Assembly (NCBI RefSeq): GCF_001484685.1 | Contig: NZ_CP012200.1 | Coordinates: 180,321-244,320, forward strand | From: Thermococcus sp. 2319x1 | Lineage (GTDB): Archaea; Methanobacteriota_B; Thermococci; Thermococcales; Thermococcaceae | DNA: 64,000 bases | Direction of reading: 5' to 3' | Shown here: piece after piece, positions 7,705 to 21,014 of the stretch | Layout of the letters: the number at the start of each line of letters is the position of its first letter | Numbering within the stretch: the first letter of the stretch is position 1 | The notes under the pieces: generated by a model | What the model saw: only the letters and a program-made list of their open reading frames with translations | The model's database searches: none | What the model was told of the DNA's origin: nothing | Made by a program: the position numbers and the translations under genes

Positions 7705-10700
7705 CTAAGAGGATTCTAGTTTATTGATGGCCTCTTGTAGCAGTAATACTGCATCTCTTAGAGTAAGATATGCCTTTCTTAGAGGTGTTAGAAGTCTTGG
7801 GTCTCCAGTGTGTATTCCCGAGAGTATGTTTCCTCCAACTACTTCTTGAGCCTTTTTATAGTACTCCCCGGCAGTCTGGTTAAGGATAAGAGCCATTTGG
7901 AGACTCTTATTGTCAACTCCCAGCTCTAAGGCTTTGCTGTAGAGTTTTTCAAAGTTGGCCAACTCTTTTAGATAGTATCTGTAATACAAGTAATTCAGCA
8001 TGGCTATTGACGCTCCAGTCTTACTCGTTATAGTGTAGGTAATGGACACATCTACTGGGGATGCAAATTTAACTGTTACAAACACGTATTTTGCCTTTTC
8101 TCCTTCTTCTACATAATATGACACTACATGGTCTCCGGTGACCACTACGTTTTCAGCCTCTTTTGGAATGACTACCATTACCATCGCGGTCTCATTTGTA
8201 GTACCATTTACCGTAATCGTTATTGTAGTCGTTGTGGTCTTTTGAGCCCCACTTGTGCTCGTACTTGTTGAAACCTTTCTTGAGACTAGGGTGGCATTTG
8301 CTTCTGGAGAGGATGCTACAATAGTTGCTTTGTGTTCTTTAATAAGCTCTTCAACTTTTGGAGGCTCTGAGACTGTTATTTGGAATGTTTTCGTCAGGGT
8401 GTTAAAGTTTTCTTTTATGATCATGATTGAGATTTCATCGACATTTAGTTTAGTTGGTTTAAATAAGAATGTTACAGTACCATTTTTGTCTGTTTTGTAA
8501 CTTATATTTTCCATAAGTTCTATAATTACTGTAGCATTAGTTATTGGTTCTAAAGTTAGGGCGTGCTTCACTATGACTGTGTAGTTTTGGGCTTCTCCAA
8601 GCACGCCTGTTGTTGGGGTAAATCCAACTACCATCTCGGCCTTGTCAACTATGAGCGTTATTGGAACAACTGCCACAGGCACACCAGTGTTCTCGTAAAC
8701 TTCGTTGTCCCTTATCTCTATTAAACCGGAGTATATACCCGCCGGGAGGTCGCTGTTGATTGATATATTAGCAGTTATGAGGGCGCTCTCGTTGCTTCCG
8801 AGGACAACAGCGTCCCTGTCGAGCTTTATGTTACCGTTGTCCACAACTATCTCAACCGATAGGTCAAAGGTTGTGGTTGTTGGATTTCCGTTTTCATCTT
8901 TAACATCATAGCCGTAAACGACTATTGAATAAGTTCCAGCTTCCGGATAGTTCACGACAATCTCTTCATACGCTGTGGGGCCCATATAGAGACCCGGATC
9001 AACGACCAAACTGCCGGTGCTGTCGTACAGGTATAGGTCAAGGTCGGCATCTGAAACACTCGGATTTCCAATCCTGATTTTTAACTGCCTGACTCCCTCT
9101 GGAACCTCAAGGGCCTTTATGAAGTACTCACCATCGGCAACGTTCTCAATGCTTGTACTGTAGGTTCCAAACCCAAAGGGCACGAGAGTGGCGTTGATTG
9201 GGGCGTAGATGTTGGTTATGTTAAAACTGACCGTGAAGTGGGTGTTGTTATCCAGGTAAGTCCTGTTTACATACCAGGTCGCTGGTGAAATATCAACACC
9301 ATAGATCTTGGCAGTGTAGCTTGACTCGTACAGCGGTGCAAAGTTCCACCCGTTCCAAACGAGCTCCCAATTTCCGGGCATCGGATTGGCCACTGCCGCA
9401 GGGGAATCTGAGACTTGGAACACGTACATTCCATCTGGCCTATAGAGGCCGTAGTCCCATCTACTCGTTGTAGTGTAGAGAACATCGACGTTCTCGGGTA
9501 TTATGAAGAAGTGGTGCCTTATCATTTTCGGACCGTTATAGTCTTCCCACCTAAGAGTATAGTTGTTTTCCAAAGCAAATTTTTCAGGGATAATAACAGT
9601 GTTCAAGATCTCATCGTCAATCACCGGCGTTGTAGGATCGTCGATGATTATCCTCCCAACGTGAAGGCCTGGCTCGAGACTATCGGTGTGGTATCCAACC
9701 TTAAGGACAAACTCAGTGTTGTTCTCAAGTGTTATGCTACCCTCCACGAAGGGCTTTATCCATTGATCCGTGGCGTAGATTTCAAACGTCCTATACTTGG
9801 TGTCTCCAACGTACTTGATATGCCACTCAACGGTCTCGGGTACTGAATTCCTCGCATAGAGACCCCTTATAACGTCGACACTGAGGTACTCAGCAAAGTC
9901 ACTGTAAGACTTCTCAGCCCAGTGATCAACAATTGGGAGGGAAGTGCCGTTCATCTCCTTGAGAAGTTTCCAGGATTTGGTGACGTTAACGAGACCGTGT
10001 CCCTGATCAAGCTCCGTGTACTCCTGACCGGTGTAGGGATCACCCTCAAGCCAGGTGGCACCGCTTTCCAATGCCTTCTTTATTTTGTCAAAGTTGTAGT
10101 CAATGCCCTCCTTTTTTGCACCGCTGATGAGAAGTGCAACGACACCGCTAACATGGGGAGTTGCCATTGAAGTTCCCGACATGAAGTCCGCGGCCCCTGC
10201 CCACATTGGGATTGAGGAATATATTCCGTATCCCGGAGCCACTACGTTGGGCTTCATTTCTCCGTCAACCCTTGGTCCCCTGCTTGAGAAATATGCCATC
10301 CTTACGTTGGTGTACGCTGGGAAGTAATAATATCCATTACTCAAAATACTGAGTATTTGCGATACAAAAACTCCGACGTTGGTAGGTACTGCAGCAGCAC
10401 CGACCGTTATTGCCTTGGTCGCAACTCCAGGGCTACCTATGATGTTAATACCTGGCCCCTCGTTTCCGGCGGCGATGACGAATATTACGCCATATTTCTC
10501 GGTGAGTTCATTAACGGCCACGCTCTCAGGATCTGAGCCGTCCAAGAAAGGATAGTTTCCACCGAGGCTCATACTAATAACATCCGCACCGTGGGTAGCG
10601 GCGTAGGTCATGCCGTTTATGATGTCCCACATCGAGCCACTACCAACACTTTTTAGAACTCTAACTGCCATTATCTGTGCACCGGGAGCCACGCCCTGGA

Positions 10701-11964
10701 CAGTATCAGTTGTCAAGTTCCTACGATCCCAACCATACAGCCGCGAAAAGATATTCCATTCACCAGCATACATGCTGAGCCAGTCCCAAGCATCGTTATT
10801 GCTGTCATAGCCAGCAATCGTCCCAGCAACGTGAGTTCCGTGGCCGTGACCATCCCAGCCGAACGATGCGTATGTTCCATTGGGATCGATCTCAGCCAGC
10901 ACGTAGTTGAGTGGACCATGGGCAGAATAACTGAAAACTGCGACATCGTAGGTCATGTTGTACTGCCTAAGTGGAACCTCATCTGTAAAGTCGTGGTCAA
11001 GATCAGTGTCGACGTAAGCTACATCGTAACCGTTTCCGCTGGAGTTTACCAGTAGAACGAGATAGAAGTCCTCCTGATCACCGTCAAAGTTGAGGTCAAA
11101 GTACCTCTCAGGAAGAAGACCAAAGTGGTAGATGCCGTTGGCAGACGTTATGTTTCCGATGGTGACGTTGTTAATGTAAATGGTTTCGGTAACGTATTCC
11201 ATGAGCCCCGTTGACTCGTTGAGTTTAAGGCCCGAATAAATGGTGAACGTCTGGTTTATAATCAGAACATCACTTACCACGTTGCTAAACTGGTAGGAGG
11301 TATCCACGAACCCCTCGTCTGTAAAATCCTTCCACTCTATAATTTTCCTCTTTCCATCCGGGGTTATGTTCAAGAACGGGTGGTTGGGATCGACTCCAGT
11401 ATCGAGAACAGCTACCAAAGTACCGTTTCCATCATACCCAATGTCCTGGATAAACTGAATTGCATTAATGACCCAAGTACTGTTATACATTTTGGGTTCA
11501 TCCAAGACTCCTGGCGAAGAAGCAAGATCCTTCTCTATCACTGGAGGAAGGAGTTTCACCTCCTTGTTGAGCCAAGCTCTCTCAAGTGATGAGATGTGGT
11601 TGAGTTCCGTGACTTTTTCTGGCTTTATTCTGACAAGGAGCATGTTCAAAACCTTGTTCTCATCAAGAATCTTCGCCCCAAGCTTTTCAAGCTCTGCTTT
11701 TGCCTCTTCGAGTTTGCCATCTTCAACCTTGATTATGAGAACTATGGTGGGTTGTCCTTTCATAATGGCATTCAATGCAGCTTGTGAGACTTCTTTTGTG
11801 ATTACTGCTTTAACTACCATGTTTCTTGTTTCAGTAGTATTCTTTGTTGCATTCTCTGAACTATACAACTTGGTATCTTCCGCTTCAGCTGATACAGACG
11901 CCGCTGGAACCACTGCAAGTAGCATCAAGAGTGTTACAAAAACACTCAGCGCCTTTTTATTCAT
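7705..11964 (-). CDS. pls: Pyrolysin-type subtilisin-like serine protease
   Basis: Cell-envelope-associated S8-family endopeptidase of 1,419 residues, close in length and sequence to Pyrococcus pyrolysin. A signal peptide covers about residues 1-27 and a propeptide follows. The catalytic triad reads Asp188 (AVLDTGVDP), His378 (HGHGTHVAGT) and Ser599 (SGTSMATPHVSG); the oxyanion Asn lies in AAGNEGPG. The 190-residue insert between Asp and His is typical of pyrolysins. Beta-sandwich domains, a threonine-rich linker (about residue 1240) and a C-terminal helical tail follow, with many N-x-S/T sites. The ATG at 11964 is chosen because GGAGGTG sits at a good distance; a GTG three codons upstream overlaps that site. 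It likely degrades extracellular protein for peptide fermentation. Confidence 0.95.
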   Translation of the reverse strand: MNKKALSVFVTLLMLLAVVPAASVSAEAEDTKLYSSENATKNTTETRNMVVKAVITKEVSQAALNAIMKGQPTIVLIIKVEDGKLEEAKAELEKLGAKILDENKVLNMLLVRIKPEKVTELNHISSLERAWLNKEVKLLPPVIEKDLASSPGVLDEPKMYNSTWVINAIQFIQDIGYDGNGTLVAVLDTGVDPNHPFLNITPDGKRKIIEWKDFTDEGFVDTSYQFSNVVSDVLIINQTFTIYSGLKLNESTGLMEYVTETIYINNVTIGNITSANGIYHFGLLPERYFDLNFDGDQEDFYLVLLVNSSGNGYDVAYVDTDLDHDFTDEVPLRQYNMTYDVAVFSYSAHGPLNYVLAEIDPNGTYASFGWDGHGHGTHVAGTIAGYDSNNDAWDWLSMYAGEWNIFSRLYGWDRRNLTTDTVQGVAPGAQIMAVRVLKSVGSGSMWDIINGMTYAATHGADVISMSLGGNYPFLDGSDPESVAVNELTEKYGVIFVIAAGNEGPGINIIGSPGVATKAITVGAAAVPTNVGVFVSQILSILSNGYYYFPAYTNVRMAYFSSRGPRVDGEMKPNVVAPGYGIYSSIPMWAGAADFMSGTSMATPHVSGVVALLISGAKKEGIDYNFDKIKKALESGATWLEGDPYTGQEYTELDQGHGLVNVTKSWKLLKEMNGTSLPIVDHWAEKSYSDFAEYLSVDVIRGLYARNSVPETVEWHIKYVGDTKYRTFEIYATDQWIKPFVEGSITLENNTEFVLKVGYHTDSLEPGLHVGRIIIDDPTTPVIDDEILNTVIIPEKFALENNYTLRWEDYNGPKMIRHHFFIIPENVDVLYTTTSRWDYGLYRPDGMYVFQVSDSPAAVANPMPGNWELVWNGWNFAPLYESSYTAKIYGVDISPATWYVNRTYLDNNTHFTVSFNITNIYAPINATLVPFGFGTYSTSIENVADGEYFIKALEVPEGVRQLKIRIGNPSVSDADLDLYLYDSTGSLVVDPGLYMGPTAYEEIVVNYPEAGTYSIVVYGYDVKDENGNPTTTTFDLSVEIVVDNGNIKLDRDAVVLGSNESALITANISINSDLPAGIYSGLIEIRDNEVYENTGVPVAVVPITLIVDKAEMVVGFTPTTGVLGEAQNYTVIVKHALTLEPITNATVIIELMENISYKTDKNGTVTFLFKPTKLNVDEISIMIIKENFNTLTKTFQITVSEPPKVEELIKEHKATIVASSPEANATLVSRKVSTSTSTSGAQKTTTTTITITVNGTTNETAMVMVVIPKEAENVVVTGDHVVSYYVEEGEKAKYVFVTVKFASPVDVSITYTITSKTGASIAMLNYLYYRYYLKELANFEKLYSKALELGVDNKSLQMALILNQTAGEYYKKAQEVVGGNILSGIHTGDPRLLTPLRKAYLTLRDAVLLLQEAINKLESS

Positions 11965-12012
11965 TGTATACACCTCCGTACTAGGTTGGTCATCTAACTA
12001 CTACTTTCTTCG

Positions 12013-12022
12013 TGAATATAAG
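12013..12022 (-). promoter_or_regulatory. TATA box of the pyrolysin gene
   Basis: On the minus strand CTTATATT is preceded by the purine-rich GCGAAACG, a plausible BRE. It lies about 50 bases upstream of the ATG, leaving a short leader with GGAGGTG. Confidence 0.55.
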
Positions 12023-12196
12023 CGTTTCGCTGGTAATGTTAAGGAAACAGCACAGGAGTAGCTCGCCGCACATACAACGGTGTTGTTAAGCCCTTAGCTA
12101 GTAACCAACAGGACTCACAAATTATGGCTTATCCACCAATAAAGTCCCAAAACGCTCCAAAAGAGTAACGAAAAATTCGGAAGAATCGTGAAAAAA

Positions 12197-13348
12197 TCAT
12201 GTTGACCTCAAAAACTCCCTAGCCAGGGCCACTTCGAGAGCCGTTCCGAGATAAAGCACTTCCTCGTCCACGTCAAACTTTGGGTGGTGGTGTGGATAAA
12301 TTATTCCCTTTTCCTCGTTTCTTGTACCCAGGGCTATAAATACTCCCGGTACCTTTTGGAGGTAGAATGCAAAGTCTTCAGCTCCCATGGTCTTTGGAAC
12401 TTCTTCTACTTTCAGCCCGAGATTTTGAGCAACCTTTCTGGCAAGAGATGCCATCTTTGGATCATTTATTGTTGGGGGGCCTACTTCTTCTATCTTGAGC
12501 TTATACGAGGCATTGTTAGCTAATGTTATGCCCTTTAAAATCTCTTCAATTCTTTTTTCAATAAGGCTTTTTGTTTCTGGCGTGAAGAATCTGTAAGTAC
12601 CGCTCATGTACACCCTTTCGGGAATCACGTTAAATGCTTCTCCGGCTTTTATTGAACCAACGGTAACAACTCCGCTTTCCAGAGGATTGAGATTTCTGCT
12701 TATGATTGTCTGAAATGCCAAGATGGCTTGAGCCGCTATTGGAATTGGGTCGATGGTTTCGTGTGGCGAAGCCCCGTGGCCTCCTTTTCCCAATATTTCA
12801 ACATCAAACCTCCCAACTCCTGCCATGAAGGGGCCTTCTCTTATACCAACAACACCGCTCGGCAGTTCCATCCATACGTGGAGGCCGAAAATAGCATCTA
12901 CGCCCTCTAAGGCTCCACCTTCTATCATCTTCAATGCTCCGTTTCCTCCCTCCTCCGCTGGCTGGAAGAGTAGTCTTACCTTGTTGGGGAGCTCGTTTTC
13001 ATGCTCTGCTATTATCTTCGCCGCCCCGAGGAGCATTGCAGTGTGAGCGTCATGGCCACAGGCATGCATTTTTCCCGGGATTCTGGACTTATAGGGGACA
13101 TCGTTCTCTTCCTGAACCGGCAAAGCATCCATATCAGCCCTCAGGGCGATAGTTTTCTCTCCTTTACCAATATCAGCTATTATTCCCGTTCCAACGCGCT
13201 TAATCCTATACCCCCACTCTCTCAAGCGATTCTCAACAATTTTTGAGGTTCTTTCTTCCTCGTAGCCAAGTTCAGGATGCATGTGAAAATCCCTGCGCCA
13301 GGCAATTATCTGGTCTTTAATTTTGATGGCTTCTTCGAGAGGATTCAT
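12197..13348 (-). CDS. M20D-family amidohydrolase (aminoacylase/carboxypeptidase type)
   Basis: Zinc-dependent cytoplasmic amidohydrolase, 383 residues, the length of the characterised Pyrococcus and Thermococcus aminoacylases. Motifs in order are RRDFHMHPELGYEE (residues 18-31), LRADMDALP, the metal-binding MHACGHDAHTAM with the HxCGHD signature, QPAEEGGNGA with the catalytic Glu pair, a dimerisation lid domain, and MGAEDFAFY near the C-terminus. It should remove N-acyl groups from amino acids or cleave small peptides. Whether aminoacylase or carboxypeptidase activity dominates cannot be settled by sequence. Peptide use fits the pyrolysin gene next door, though the two have separate promoters. 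Confidence 0.88.
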   Translation of the reverse strand: MNPLEEAIKIKDQIIAWRRDFHMHPELGYEEERTSKIVENRLREWGYRIKRVGTGIIADIGKGEKTIALRADMDALPVQEENDVPYKSRIPGKMHACGHDAHTAMLLGAAKIIAEHENELPNKVRLLFQPAEEGGNGALKMIEGGALEGVDAIFGLHVWMELPSGVVGIREGPFMAGVGRFDVEILGKGGHGASPHETIDPIPIAAQAILAFQTIISRNLNPLESGVVTVGSIKAGEAFNVIPERVYMSGTYRFFTPETKSLIEKRIEEILKGITLANNASYKLKIEEVGPPTINDPKMASLARKVAQNLGLKVEEVPKTMGAEDFAFYLQKVPGVFIALGTRNEEKGIIYPHHHPKFDVDEEVLYLGTALEVALAREFLRST

Positions 13349-13384
13349 TGGAGTTCACCGATTTGAGTAGTTCAAATTCATATT

Positions 13385-14419
13385 TTAGCCTTTCGATGCA
13401 TACTTTGAATAGACTCCACCAAAAATCAACAACACGGAAAGAATAAAGGCATCCACCCCGCTCTCAAGGGCATAAATTAGCGTCGCCAAAACAATACTTG
13501 CGGTTTTTTTGTTTTTTTCTGATAATCTAAGCAAACTTCCAAATAGATACGCCTCAACTACCCCAAGGATTCCAAAATCCGCTATTGGCTGGCCGAAGAG
13601 GAAGTAAGTGTACCTACCATTAAGGGTAAACATAAATGCTATCCTCCACCTGGGGTCACTGTGGAGTAACAATTTGCCATGGAAAAAGCCAAATGGAAGG
13701 GAGACTGAAACTATGTTATGGAAAATCAAAAATGTAAATCCTATTCTGACCAAAAGGGCTTCAAGATTCCCACTTAAGAAGACAACAAATAAGAAAACTG
13801 GTAGTCCGATTAAGGCTTGTCTGAAAGTCAATTTGTTTTTGTGATAATATGGAAGCGAGTAAAACAGAAATATCAAAAGCATCAGAGATCTAAAAGTGCC
13901 TAAAAAGAAAAGAACCTCCAATGCTAAGAAAAGGGCAGTTTTGATTTTCCAGTTTAGTTCGCAATACGTAAGAGAGATTCCAGACAAAAACGCAAAAAAC
14001 ACTAAGGGTTTAACAAGCCTAAACCTGAGCTCCCACTGGAAAAGGGGGACACCTTCAAATAGATAGAGAGCAAGTATGGAAAAGATAGAGCCCGCAAGGA
14101 CAAATTTTGCGTATCTTTCAAAAACATTGTACTCTCGTGAGAGGAGGAACAGAACTAAAACAGCCAACTGGCCATAAATTGGGAGTGCAAAGGAGAGAAT
14201 GAATACGATAAACCAGTAAACCCATTCCGGGAATCTTATCGGCTTTAAATAGCCGAGAACCAAACCCCCCCAAAATAGCATGGCAATAGCGAGAGCAATT
14301 GTGATTCTACCGGAGGGAAGAACCGTAGCATACAGTTTATCCCTGAGAAAGATATTTGCACAAACCATTAAAAATAGGTATGTAAAAAATGCAAGGGTGA
14401 AGAGCTTTAGGCCTTTCAT
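13385..14419 (-). CDS. Polytopic membrane protein of unknown function
   Basis: A 344-residue protein made almost entirely of hydrophobic segments, around ten or more membrane helices, with short charged loops. I do not recognise a family signature. The arrangement, and divergence by 57 bases from an oligosaccharyltransferase-like gene, are reminiscent of polymerase or ligase proteins of surface glycan pathways, but this is only context. A TATA-like TTTATTAAAG lies in the divergent gap at about 14432-14442. Confidence 0.7.
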   Translation of the reverse strand: MKGLKLFTLAFFTYLFLMVCANIFLRDKLYATVLPSGRITIALAIAMLFWGGLVLGYLKPIRFPEWVYWFIVFILSFALPIYGQLAVLVLFLLSREYNVFERYAKFVLAGSIFSILALYLFEGVPLFQWELRFRLVKPLVFFAFLSGISLTYCELNWKIKTALFLALEVLFFLGTFRSLMLLIFLFYSLPYYHKNKLTFRQALIGLPVFLFVVFLSGNLEALLVRIGFTFLIFHNIVSVSLPFGFFHGKLLLHSDPRWRIAFMFTLNGRYTYFLFGQPIADFGILGVVEAYLFGSLLRLSEKNKKTASIVLATLIYALESGVDAFILSVLLIFGGVYSKYASKG

Positions 14420-14476
14420 TGAACCACCAACTTTAATAAAGTCAAAAGAATATTAAAAGGCTTAGGGGTGTAAAAG

Positions 14477-16912
14477 ATGAAGAGAACTAAGTTTGCACTG
14501 TTTATTGTTGTCTCATTCCTTGTAAGGCTAATACCTCACAGAACTCTGCTGCTTGCGGTCTATGACGAATATCTCCATAGGGATTTGACGTTGAGAATCG
14601 CTAACAGTGGGATAGGAGTTCTTTCTAGAGATTTAGGGTCGTTATTGGGTCTTAAAGCCTACAGCTATCCTCCTCTCTTTCATGTAATAGGGGCCCTCTT
14701 TTATGGGATTTTCAAGAGTGATTTTGTGTTCTTTGTACTGCCAGCCGTTTATGGCGTGCTCTCCCTGATAGCCTTCTACTATCTCTCAAAGGAAATTCTA
14801 GGAGAGGAAAATAAAGCATTCTTGGCAACCCTTTTGGTGGGCTTTGCTCCGAATTTTCTTTATAGAACTAGCCTTTACATCCCCGAAAATCTCGGCGTTT
14901 TTCTGTTTATTTCTGGGCTATGGTTAATAGTGAGATTCCTCAAAACTGGAAAAACGAAGTATTTAATTTACTCGATGGTCTTGCTCCCAGTTTATATGGT
15001 CACACACAGAGGATGGGTGTTTTTTGTTGGAGTTGGACTATTAATGTTCTTTGTGCATTTCATTCCATGGGTGAAGAGGCATCTCCACTATCTGGCAGTT
15101 TTAGCCCTTGCAGCTCTTGCCCTTTACTATGCCCCCGTAACCGGGGAGTTCATAAGGGGCCTCATATCCAGAATGCCAAGGGAAGAGGTTACAGCTTTGG
15201 GATATTTGAAGTGGATTGGAGTTGTTCAACTGATTTTTGGAGTTTTGGCGACTAAGAAGTATTTAGAAGGAGACCCAGTTAGGCAGGGTTTGGCCTTGTG
15301 GGCTTGGGCGTTCATGATCTTAGGCAGCATAGCGTTTAGGTTTAGGGATCCTTATGCATCCCTACCCCTTTCAATAATGGCGGCAGAGTACTTGGTGGAT
15401 GAGGTATTTCCAAAGCTTCGCCTAATTCTTGAAAAAATCACTGCAGATATGAGTGGAATAGGTGCGAACGTATTTAGGAAGGCTTTGCTGAATAAAAAAG
15501 CCGTTTCCATTTTGATAGCATTGTTTATTGTTACTCCCATTGTGCAGGGGGCTTACTCTTCGTATGCCTACATAACTCCCCCGACGGTAAAGGACAAAGA
15601 GGCGTTTGAATGGATAAAAGAGAACACTCCAGAAGATGCCGTATTTTTGGTGTGGTGGGATTTGGGATATCTGTTAATAGGCAACACCCATAGAAAAGAC
15701 GTCGTGATGTGGAAGAAAGTCTACCAAGGATTTTTTGAGGAGGCTCCTGATTCTCAGGAGGCGATTAAGGCGTATTCAGATCACGTGGTCATGTTCAGTT
15801 CAACCCAAAAGGAGAGGGTTTATCATTTGATGGAGCTCTACAATGTCAGCTACATCTATGTAGATAATTACCGCAGGGCCTATGGTCTCATAAAGTACGG
15901 CCTTATGGAGTATGCCCCTTATGATACTCATTTCAAAACGCTCTTCGTAAATGGAAACTCTGAGCTCTATCAATTCATACCAAACCCCTCCCTCCTTCCA
16001 CCGGATCGGGATAGGATAGAGTATTCCGGAAGCTATGAAGTGTTGGTGAACTTTTTGGAAAACTTCTGGACTGGCTACAACTATGCGGACTTTGATGACG
16101 GATATAAGGGGGATTACTTTTTGAATTCCAGGATTGCGGAAATATACTCTTACCTCTATCAAAAGACAGGGAACGAAAAATTCAAAGAGCGCTATGAATG
16201 GTTATTAAGGTGGCTTGCATATAAACAACTCGATAATGGGGGCTTTCCGGAAGGAATTCCTCCGAATGACTTTACTCTGTATACCGCCTTTACATTGGAG
16301 CCCCTAATGAAAATGCCTTTTGAGGGAAGTGCTAAGGGGAGGAAGTACCTCCAAGAGAGGATCAAAGAAAATTACATTATGACAACTCCAAAAGACAAAA
16401 AGGGAGACCTCTTTGCTGAGGCCCAAATGCTCCCAATACTCTATGAATACAGCCTGCTTAATGGGACGGTGCTAAATAATTTAATAACCAAAATCCTTGA
16501 GGAACAGAGGAAGGATGGGAGCTGGAGGGAGAGCTTAGGAGGAACCATTGTTACGGCCTTTGGTCTGGCCAGATACTACCAGATAAGTGGGGATGAAAGG
16601 GTCTTACCTGCAATCAAAAAGGCAGCAGAATGGATCAAGGAGCAGCAAGAAGAAAACGGACATTTCAAAGGGGAAAAGGGGTACGGTTATTCCAGGGCAA
16701 CCTATGCCAATGTTTTGTTCGTGTACCATATTGTCGGAATGACGAAAGAGGAGGAACAGATGCTGAACATTATAAAGAACACCTATGACCTCAACAAGGA
16801 ACCACGGCCTCTTCAAGCTACATTGGATATCTTCAGGGCTTTGAAGTATGCTTATGGTATGGAAAATGCCATAGAAATTCTCAGTGAAATTCTGGCGTTG
16901 CAAAACTTTTAA
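14477..16912 (+). CDS. Oligosaccharyltransferase (STT3/AglB)-like membrane protein with a cyclase-like C-terminal domain
   Basis: An 811-residue protein. Residues 1-370 carry about ten membrane helices, with an acidic loop YDEY (Asp30) where GT-C transferases hold a metal-binding acidic motif. At residues 393-398 comes WWDLGY, close to the WWDYG signature of STT3/AglB. From about 530 the chain is soluble and contains repeats QLDNGGFPEG (about 583), QRKDGSW (about 677) and QEENGHFKG (about 724), like the QW repeats of alpha-alpha barrel terpene cyclases and prenyltransferases. A role in transferring a lipid-linked glycan or processing its isoprenoid carrier is inference; it is too divergent to be called the main AglB. 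The start is an ATG behind GGGGTG. Confidence 0.7.
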   Translation: MKRTKFALFIVVSFLVRLIPHRTLLLAVYDEYLHRDLTLRIANSGIGVLSRDLGSLLGLKAYSYPPLFHVIGALFYGIFKSDFVFFVLPAVYGVLSLIAFYYLSKEILGEENKAFLATLLVGFAPNFLYRTSLYIPENLGVFLFISGLWLIVRFLKTGKTKYLIYSMVLLPVYMVTHRGWVFFVGVGLLMFFVHFIPWVKRHLHYLAVLALAALALYYAPVTGEFIRGLISRMPREEVTALGYLKWIGVVQLIFGVLATKKYLEGDPVRQGLALWAWAFMILGSIAFRFRDPYASLPLSIMAAEYLVDEVFPKLRLILEKITADMSGIGANVFRKALLNKKAVSILIALFIVTPIVQGAYSSYAYITPPTVKDKEAFEWIKENTPEDAVFLVWWDLGYLLIGNTHRKDVVMWKKVYQGFFEEAPDSQEAIKAYSDHVVMFSSTQKERVYHLMELYNVSYIYVDNYRRAYGLIKYGLMEYAPYDTHFKTLFVNGNSELYQFIPNPSLLPPDRDRIEYSGSYEVLVNFLENFWTGYNYADFDDGYKGDYFLNSRIAEIYSYLYQKTGNEKFKERYEWLLRWLAYKQLDNGGFPEGIPPNDFTLYTAFTLEPLMKMPFEGSAKGRKYLQERIKENYIMTTPKDKKGDLFAEAQMLPILYEYSLLNGTVLNNLITKILEEQRKDGSWRESLGGTIVTAFGLARYYQISGDERVLPAIKKAAEWIKEQQEENGHFKGEKGYGYSRATYANVLFVYHIVGMTKEEEQMLNIIKNTYDLNKEPRPLQATLDIFRALKYAYGMENAIEILSEILALQNF

Positions 16913-19412: not shown

Positions 19413-19589
19413 GCTCTTTAACTTCTTTTCTTTTGTTAGGTTTTTGTTTCTAAGTTTTTGCATAGGGATAATTTATCCATAATAAGCTTTTTATAATAAC
19501 GTTTCGATTTCCATTTGACCATAAAGCGATCGCCTTTGAGCAGAATTAAGATATGCGATGATCAGTGATATCTCACTAAGGTGGCCTGT

Positions 19590-20963
19590 ATGGACGGAGA
19601 GAAGATTCAGGCGATGAGGCAGGAGATAGTAGAGGGCAACATAGAGAAAACAATGCTGAAGCTGGCCTATCCTTTAATAATCAACAACATGGTTCAAGTT
19701 CTTTATAACCTCACAGATACTTTCTGGCTTGGAAGATTGGGTACGGAAGAGCTCTCCGCCCCAGGGACGGCTTGGCCTCTCGTATGGTTTTTTATGAGCA
19801 TTGGAATGGGCTTTGCGACTGCGGGCTTTGCCTTTGTGAGCCAGTATATTGGGGCTAAGGATTATGAGAAGGCTGGTAGAGCCGCTGGAGCGCTGTATTC
19901 CTTGATGATGTTCTTTGCCATATTTGTAGCCATTTTTGGACTTCTAATAGCACCTTTAGCCCTTAAGTTCATGAAGGTCACGCCTGAGGTTTATCCTTTT
20001 GCTTTAAGTTATATTAGGATAATTTTCATAGGCATACCCTTCTCCTTCACTTTGTTTGCATTTAACTTCCTCCTCAGGGCAGTTGGGGATACAAAAACTC
20101 CTGTGAAAATCAACATGTTCACTGTTTTCCTTAACGTTATTTTAGACCCCCTCTTGATTTTTGGCTGGTTGGGGTTTCCGAGGCTTGGAGTTATAGGGGC
20201 TGCAGTGGCAACAATGTTTTCGAACAGTGTTGGTTCTTTGATTGGAGGGTATCTGCTGTTCAAAGGTAGGGTAGGAATTCATCTTACCTTGGAGAACCTC
20301 AAGCCAGAGTGGGATTTCTATGCCAGGATTTTCAGAGTGGGACTGCCCTCGAGTGTGGGCTTTTCTACGGATGCCTTTGGCTTTGTTGTGCTTACGAGAA
20401 TAATCTACATCTATGGAACCGTCGCCTTCGCTACCTATACCATAGGAAACCGTCTTACAAATTTTATGTTCGCTATAGCTGACGGAATAAGCCAAGCAAT
20501 GGGGACCATGGTGGGCCAGAACGTTGGTGCCGAGAAATACGAGAGGGCAAAGAAAATAGCGGAGAGGGCCATGCTGACCAATTTAATTGTGCTAACTGTT
20601 GGAACTGCTATAGTGGTAGCTTTCAGAGCCCAGATATTCGGATTTTTCGTGAAGGATGAAAGGGTTTTAGCGGAAAGTGCTAAGTTCGTTAGGTATTTTG
20701 CCTTTTCCTTGCCGTTTTTTGGCATTTTTTCCGCTGTAAGCAACGTATTTCAGAGCTCTGGACATACCAAAAAGAGCATGATACTTGGGATGGTAAGGTT
20801 GTGGGTGCTTAGAATCCCCCTTGCATACAGCCTTGGAAAGTTTATGGCAGATACAACTGGAGTATGGCTTGGAATGGGTTTAAGTAACTTTCTGGCGGCA
20901 TTAATTGGCTTTGCTTGGTTCCTTAAAGGTAGCTGGATGAAAAGGATTATAGATGAGGGTTGA
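19590..20963 (+). CDS. MATE-family multidrug/cation exporter
   Basis: Polytopic inner-membrane transporter of about 457 residues with twelve predicted helices in two homologous halves, the MATE layout. It begins with a short polar stretch and then LKLAYPLIINNMVQVLYNLT, and contains DTFWLGRLGTEELSAPG, typical of the DinF/NorM group. It probably exchanges protons or sodium for an organic cation or lipid-linked substrate; the substrate is not readable. The ATG at 19590 is preferred because AAGGTGG lies six bases before it; a GTG three codons upstream overlaps that site. Confidence 0.88.
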   Translation: MDGEKIQAMRQEIVEGNIEKTMLKLAYPLIINNMVQVLYNLTDTFWLGRLGTEELSAPGTAWPLVWFFMSIGMGFATAGFAFVSQYIGAKDYEKAGRAAGALYSLMMFFAIFVAIFGLLIAPLALKFMKVTPEVYPFALSYIRIIFIGIPFSFTLFAFNFLLRAVGDTKTPVKINMFTVFLNVILDPLLIFGWLGFPRLGVIGAAVATMFSNSVGSLIGGYLLFKGRVGIHLTLENLKPEWDFYARIFRVGLPSSVGFSTDAFGFVVLTRIIYIYGTVAFATYTIGNRLTNFMFAIADGISQAMGTMVGQNVGAEKYERAKKIAERAMLTNLIVLTVGTAIVVAFRAQIFGFFVKDERVLAESAKFVRYFAFSLPFFGIFSAVSNVFQSSGHTKKSMILGMVRLWVLRIPLAYSLGKFMADTTGVWLGMGLSNFLAALIGFAWFLKGSWMKRIIDEG

Positions 20964-20973
20964 GGCGCCAAAA

Positions 20974-20982
20974 TATTTATAT
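20974..20982 (+). promoter_or_regulatory. TATA box of the AbrB/PhoU gene
   Basis: TATTTATAT after GCCAAAA, about 40 bases before the start codon; a short leader is expected. Confidence 0.55.
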
Positions 20983-21014
20983 GGTGAGAATTCTATATAG
21001 ATTGGGTGTTTGGT

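Follow-up and report, generated by a model that had tools for sequence, protein, structure and literature searches.

We describe here a gene of Thermococcaceae whose product appears to unite an STT3-like membrane transferase with an alpha/alpha toroid, and which is paired with a divergent gene for a putative polymerase of the PF01901 family. This pair, i.e., the STT3-toroid gene and its close PF01901 partner (cassette I), is one of two mutually exclusive cassettes found at the same chromosomal slot, the other being an alternative PF01901 operon marked by the protein OpA (cassette II). The gene lies in the stretch of 64,000 nucleotides analysed in this work (the window), which belongs to a Thermococcaceae genome of 1.96 Mb in a single contig. 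Homology, the domain structure, the pairing of the genes, the mutual exclusion of the cassettes and the replacement of one by the other are shown here by computation. We give about an even chance to the proposal that the STT3-derived transferase attaches or extends a surface glycan made by the PF01901 partner, with the toroid handling the glycan. The locus comprises the following features:

14477..16912, plus strand: STT3-toroid gene, 811 aa (open reading frame with an ATG start and no internal stop)
13385..14419, minus strand: partner gene encoding a putative Wzy-like O-antigen polymerase of PF01901, 344 aa (Pfam 1.3e-18, adjacency)
14420..14476, no strand assigned: shared divergent promoter region of 57 bp, with sites resembling ribosome-binding sites at both ends (aggggtg on the plus strand, ggtggt on the minus strand)

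Distribution of the STT3-toroid gene

The genome set searched covered the whole class Thermococci (115 genomes, including 94 of Thermococcaceae). The STT3-toroid protein was found in 40 of the 115, and every carrier belongs to Thermococcaceae (40/94), the carriers spanning five genera (g1, g3, g4, g5 and g6). In complete copies, both domains always reside in one protein, with 51-93% identity extending over the whole length; the fusion is therefore old and maintained. Since full-length co-linear homologs exist in five genera, the two halves constitute one conserved protein, not an annotation artefact. In one genome (G028), the gene is broken in two by a frameshift. When a stand-alone toroid was sought in the 115 genomes, the matches fell only within the STT3-toroid family, apart from fragments and relics. 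The viral contigs scanned contained no relative of the protein, and the search for a second fusion in plasmids by tblastn gave only N-terminal GT-C similarity to haloarchaeal proteins of 545-548 aa, whose genes adjoin sulfotransferase and glmM/glmS genes. The open-access literature yielded no account of an STT3 protein that carries an alpha/alpha toroid, a novelty that we regard as provisional.

The N-terminal half and its relation to STT3 and AglB

Residue conservation in the family was judged on 27 homologs, and the following elements of the N-terminal half were delineated, all on the plus strand:

14486..15550, plus strand: GT-C membrane region, residues 4-358, with about 11 predicted transmembrane helices, N-in/C-out (hydropathy, loop charge, PMT_2, hhalign)
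14561..14578, plus strand: first acidic motif YDEYLH (29-34), which aligns to YDPYYH in an AglB-like protein of archaea (invariant in the 27 homologs; hhalign, joint alignment)
14882..14890, plus strand: PEN (136-138) in place of the second DXD motif, E137 being invariant (alignments, hhalign)
15185..15187, plus strand: E237, an invariant Glu in the shortened external loop where TIXE would fall, of uncertain equivalence (alignments, hydropathy)
15338..15346, plus strand: RFR (288-290), invariant, with R290 aligned with a conserved Arg of AglB-like proteins (alignments, hhalign)
15653..15670, plus strand: WWDLGY (393-398), invariant save for X = L/M/V (alignment, profile vs. PDB)
15590..16006, plus strand: soluble region resembling the STT3 central core, residues 372-510 (hhalign to residue 467; DUF6798 at 3.3e-8 over 374-417)

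When compared by hhalign with four AglB-like proteins of the class, the family was co-linear with them over residues 6-467 (probability 99.1, E 7.5e-19), and the family profile run against PDB sequences retrieved STT3 proteins only (human and fungal), matched in the transmembrane and WWD parts at up to 7.6e-12. As judged from these profiles, residues 1-470 are homologs of archaeal AglB/STT3. An earlier note, made from the sequence of this DNA, had already delimited the open reading frame at 14477-16912, called its N-terminal half STT3-like and placed WWDLGY at 393-398; the conserved homologs and both profile comparisons bear this out, and the position of the motif is exact. Two other STT3 relatives are encoded in the same genome, AglB-L (952 aa; G000 C1:313010-315865) and a further AglB-like protein (G000:C1:1855689-1857464), which brings the total to three.

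The likeness to AglB/STT3 (GT66) thus comprises the co-linear profile homology, an acidic motif in EL1, an outward Arg and WWDxGY; D30, E137, R290 and WWDxGY are invariant across the 27 homologs. In the profile alignment, SYPPLFH (63-69) stands for SHPPLFH of AglB-like proteins, and D463 is invariant at the aligned place of the DK/MI motif, the residue at +3 being variable. Several traits set the family apart. Family-averaged hydropathy predicts 11 transmembrane helices instead of the 13 of STT3/AglB (a prediction only), the Tyr of WWDYG is replaced by L/M/V in all 27 homologs, and an alpha/alpha toroid stands where AglB has beta-rich C-terminal units. The position of the second DXD (EL2) reads PEN, with E137 as the sole acidic residue there. 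Neither a TIXE/SVSE motif nor the DGGK motif of euryarchaeal AglB was recognisable in the alignments, and the external loop before TM8 has about 18 residues, as opposed to 44 in its counterpart in AfAglB, where TIXE reads the sequon backbone and its Glu forms the metal site together with D47 and D161/H163 (PMC8342417). The invariant E237 is the only candidate for the TIXE Glu and might substitute for it. The predicted N-in/C-out topology would place both the WWD region and the toroid outside the membrane. In the full-length AF2 model built from three sequences, residues 1-510 had pLDDT in the 30s, and only the model of the C-terminal part was used.

Two other activities of this half have to be weighed. 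According to the first, the GT-C region adds single sugars from dolichol-phosphate to the PF01901 repeat unit or polymer in the manner of ArnT/PMT, with no en bloc transfer. The Pfam model PMT_2 indeed matches the protein at 1e-9 and is found in 27/27 homologs, while the STT3 model is found in only 2; moreover, a separate PMT_2 GT-C of 470-490 aa is present in cassette II and beside the STT3-toroid gene in several cassette I loci. Against this stand the invariance of WWDxGY and of the STT3 central core, and the profile, whose co-linearity with AglB-like proteins extends through the WWD domain; PMT-type enzymes are not known to have either WWDxGY or the STT3 central core. We hold this mode of action to be a possible one, though on the unlikely side.

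According to the second, the protein is an ordinary third oligosaccharyltransferase, an AglB paralog acting on N-x-S/T sequons, in which the toroid only replaces the beta-rich C-terminal units. This would agree with the STT3 homology and WWDxGY, and paralogy is usual here, since the genome has AglB-L and a further AglB-like protein. It is, however, poorly compatible with the failure to recognise TIXE and DGGK, the shortened sequon-reading loop, the 11 predicted helices and the change of the Tyr in WWDYG in all homologs; in addition, the companion of the gene is a polysaccharide polymerase gene rather than genes for N-glycans. We therefore consider it improbable that the protein works as a standard oligosaccharyltransferase.

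The C-terminal half is predicted to be an alpha/alpha toroid

16025..16909, plus strand: alpha/alpha toroid, residues 517-811, six helical hairpins (AF2, Foldseek vs. PDB, conserved face)

The AF2 model of the C-terminal part alone, built from three sequences (pLDDT 80.8, pTM 0.85), consists of twelve helices in six hairpins. Foldseek against the PDB retrieved alpha/alpha toroids only, of mixed function: the squalene-hopene cyclases 8pak/8paj were among the best (E 4e-4, TMq 0.50-0.52), UGL/GH88 reached TMq 0.58-0.59, and further matches were to GH76, cellobiose 2-epimerase and complement TED domains. The earlier note had made its reading of this half depend on an alpha-alpha barrel with a pocket; a toroid is predicted, and it has one conserved face, so that this part of the reading stands. 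Invariant residues make up 56/173 positions of the inner helices and the loops of one face vs. 14/110 of the outer helices and the other face (P 2e-4), and the invariant acidic and aromatic residues gather on one face. In the model, this pattern is as expected for a ligand pocket, though structural constraint on the inner helices contributes to it.

The domain resembles squalene-hopene and other class II terpene cyclases in its fold and in QW-like repeats. The latter had been pointed out before, and three Q-x3-G-x-[FWY] repeats are indeed present (at residues 584, 677 and 724), well above the average of 0.13 in shuffled C-terminal halves (P 5e-5); only 1-3 are kept per homolog, however. Other traits separate the protein from terpene cyclases: it has one toroid only, fused to a GT-C region, and the DXDD of class II cyclases is not conserved, YADFD being followed by D/E/N/T/S among the homologs, with DXDD in only some of them. 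All cyclase family models remained under their cut-offs, with 23 bits vs. 26.1 for SQHop_cyclase_C (Pfam) and 19-21 bits vs. 323-431 for the NCBIfam models. The (alpha/alpha)6 carbohydrate-active enzymes (GH76, GH88/GH105, PL10, GH127, cellobiose 2-epimerase, C5-epimerase) are of the same fold class. The pectate lyase, GH127 and C5-epimerase models exceed their cut-offs in some homologs and score as high as the cyclase models or higher, but these matches span no more than one or two hairpins. For none of the (alpha/alpha)6 carbohydrate-active families could catalytic residues be assigned in the toroid.

Neither structure nor sequence decides between a terpene cyclase and a carbohydrate-active toroid. 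We nevertheless find it more likely that the toroid handles a glycan than a terpene or polyprenol, because the face is conserved and DXDD is not, and because the carbohydrate-active models score as high or higher. The idea of the earlier note that a terpene-cyclase-like domain acts on the polyprenol carrier or on some surface lipid, for which the 8pak/8paj matches and the three repeats speak, appears very improbable in view of the variable DXDD, the sub-threshold cyclase models, the equal or better sequence and TM-score matches to carbohydrate-active toroids, the isoprenoid genes, which do not travel with the STT3-toroid gene, and a context that points to surface polysaccharide polymerisation, not lipid metabolism.

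The divergent PF01901 partner

The partner gene had been noted as encoding a polytopic protein of unknown role. It does lie 57 bp away in the divergent orientation, but its type is not wholly obscure: residues 47-317 of 344 match PF01901 with 67.8 bits (Pfam cut-off 24.2). A close PF01901 partner, defined by E <= 1e-90, is present in 37 genomes and adjoins the STT3-toroid gene in 37/37; the 3 remaining carriers are fragmentary MAGs in which the gene lies at contig ends. The close partner is absent from every genome that has no STT3-toroid gene. At homologous loci, the intergenic gap does not exceed 58 bp, or the starts overlap. Within 14420-14476 of the window lies the near-palindromic ACTTTAATAAAGT, which could serve as a TATA element both ways. 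The cassette I of genus g5 contains two PF01901 genes in tandem next to the STT3-toroid gene (L036 11238-13367, L037, L038, L181).

One slot, two alternative cassettes

In most sampled loci, the cassette I pair has pps on one side and a pyrolysin-like or M20 gene on the other. Among the 94 Thermococcaceae, the slot contains cassette I in 40 genomes, cassette II in 39 and neither in 15, and no genome has both, so that the two cassettes are mutually exclusive (Fisher P 2e-14). Cassette II adjoins pps in 19/20 sampled loci and comprises the two PF01901 proteins OpA and OpB and a 225-aa protein with weak similarity to the TrmB domain, usually accompanied by a PMT_2 GT-C about 490 aa long. Of the two PF01901 proteins, OpB corresponds to the cassette I partner (hhalign E 2e-43), and OpA is distantly related to that partner (hhalign E 1.7e-12). 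The empty state was examined in 8 of the 15 genomes (L169-L176), and in 8/8 pps lies directly beside the pyrolysin-like gene.

The direct evidence of cassette replacement comes from genome G099 (L053, G099:C1:593001-613000; 10437-14649), where cassette II is inserted between the remains of the two cassette I genes, namely their 3′ ends. These relics comprise residues 771-811 of the STT3-toroid protein, stop included, and the 148 C-terminal residues of the PF01901 partner, and the flanks are 93-98% identical to the window. The same relics are found in G102. Genera g1, g3 and g4 each contain both cassettes, and OpA of g1 shares 81% identity with that of g2 vs. 44-58% with its g3 and g4 counterparts, an indication of lateral transfer. 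The pps tree requires about 18 changes of cassette state, a count that is only indicative, since pps is next to the slot and apparently recombines together with it. In G100, a gene for a TnpB-like protein with zinc-finger CxxC motifs, a possible agent of local rearrangement, lies immediately downstream of pps (L034 14302-15258).

Mixed cassettes also occur: a PMT_2 GT-C of the cassette II type is found between pps and the STT3-toroid gene in five cassette I loci:

L043 6852-8273: cassette II-type GT-C
L045 11819-13213: cassette II-type GT-C
L046 7261-8655: cassette II-type GT-C
L178 9076-10497: cassette II-type GT-C
L179 8804-10225: cassette II-type GT-C

An operon that consists of two PF01901 paralogs, a secreted TrmB-like protein and a PMT-family GT (arCOG03206/arCOG03414) has been assigned to a glycosylation or lipopolysaccharide-like pathway (Makarova et al. 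2015, PMC5898192). Cassette II fits the published description (PMC5898192). Cassette I shares with this operon the PF01901 polymerase of the OpB type, but has neither the 225-aa TrmB-like protein nor OpA, and carries the divergent STT3-toroid gene instead. In the swap, the STT3-toroid protein occupies the place of OpA and the TrmB-like protein. This is suggestive but does not prove that their roles are equal, given that either cassette can be accompanied by a third GT-C; the mutual exclusion, moreover, may be a matter of position (one slot, two alleles) and not of equivalent function. The hypervariable module of Thermococcales described in PMC8416519 is a different one, and the slot does not appear there; as far as the open-access literature goes, a slot with two cassettes is undescribed, its novelty being provisional.

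Within the window, no genes for lipid-linked glycans flank the STT3-toroid locus, which counts against the glycan-transfer proposal. Elsewhere in the window, positions 19581-21006 encode one MATE transporter, two in tandem being present in most relatives, and the segment 50000-54000 has a GC content of 32% vs. about 45% elsewhere and is possibly acquired.

Discussion

Which donor and acceptor are used, which way the transfer runs and what the toroid does are inferred here from homology, architecture, gene pairing and cassette replacement, read together with existing knowledge of STT3, Wzy and alpha/alpha toroids. The STT3-derived GT-C transferase would sit in the cell membrane of Thermococcales with its core facing outward. 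The PF01901 partner, acting as a Wzy-like polymerase or ligase, would build or lengthen the donor chain, and a dolichol-linked sugar chain would serve as the donor for the STT3 core; a dolichol-phosphate monosaccharide, as used by other PMT_2 proteins, is an equally possible donor. The enzyme would then pass the chain to a surface acceptor, either protein or lipid, which is probably recognised by something other than an ordinary N-x-S/T sequon. The toroid, outside the membrane, most likely serves to bind, measure or trim either the glycan or the acceptor. As the slot takes either of two interchangeable cassettes, of which this pair is one, cassette I likely sets a strain-specific surface glycan, and the findings suggest that the slot is an exchangeable system for building surface sugar chains.

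A more specific and distinctly more tentative version of this proposal, which we would rather doubt than accept, is that STT3 has been re-used in Thermococcales as a Wzy-type polysaccharide ligase whose core, its sequon-reading loop being lost, transfers from dolichol to a non-sequon acceptor, with the toroid gripping or finishing the polymer, and that it replaces the sugar-binding pair of OpA and the TrmB-like protein. If true, this would make the slot an archaeal serotype-like locus.

Little is known about the surface polysaccharides of archaea or about the enzymes that attach them. The slot, which in close species carries one of the two non-orthologous PF01901 cassettes or none, offers natural pairs for testing PF01901 proteins and STT3-derived enzymes. 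An STT3 relative with a toroid and with no recognisable sequon-reading loop would show how far this scaffold can change its acceptor.
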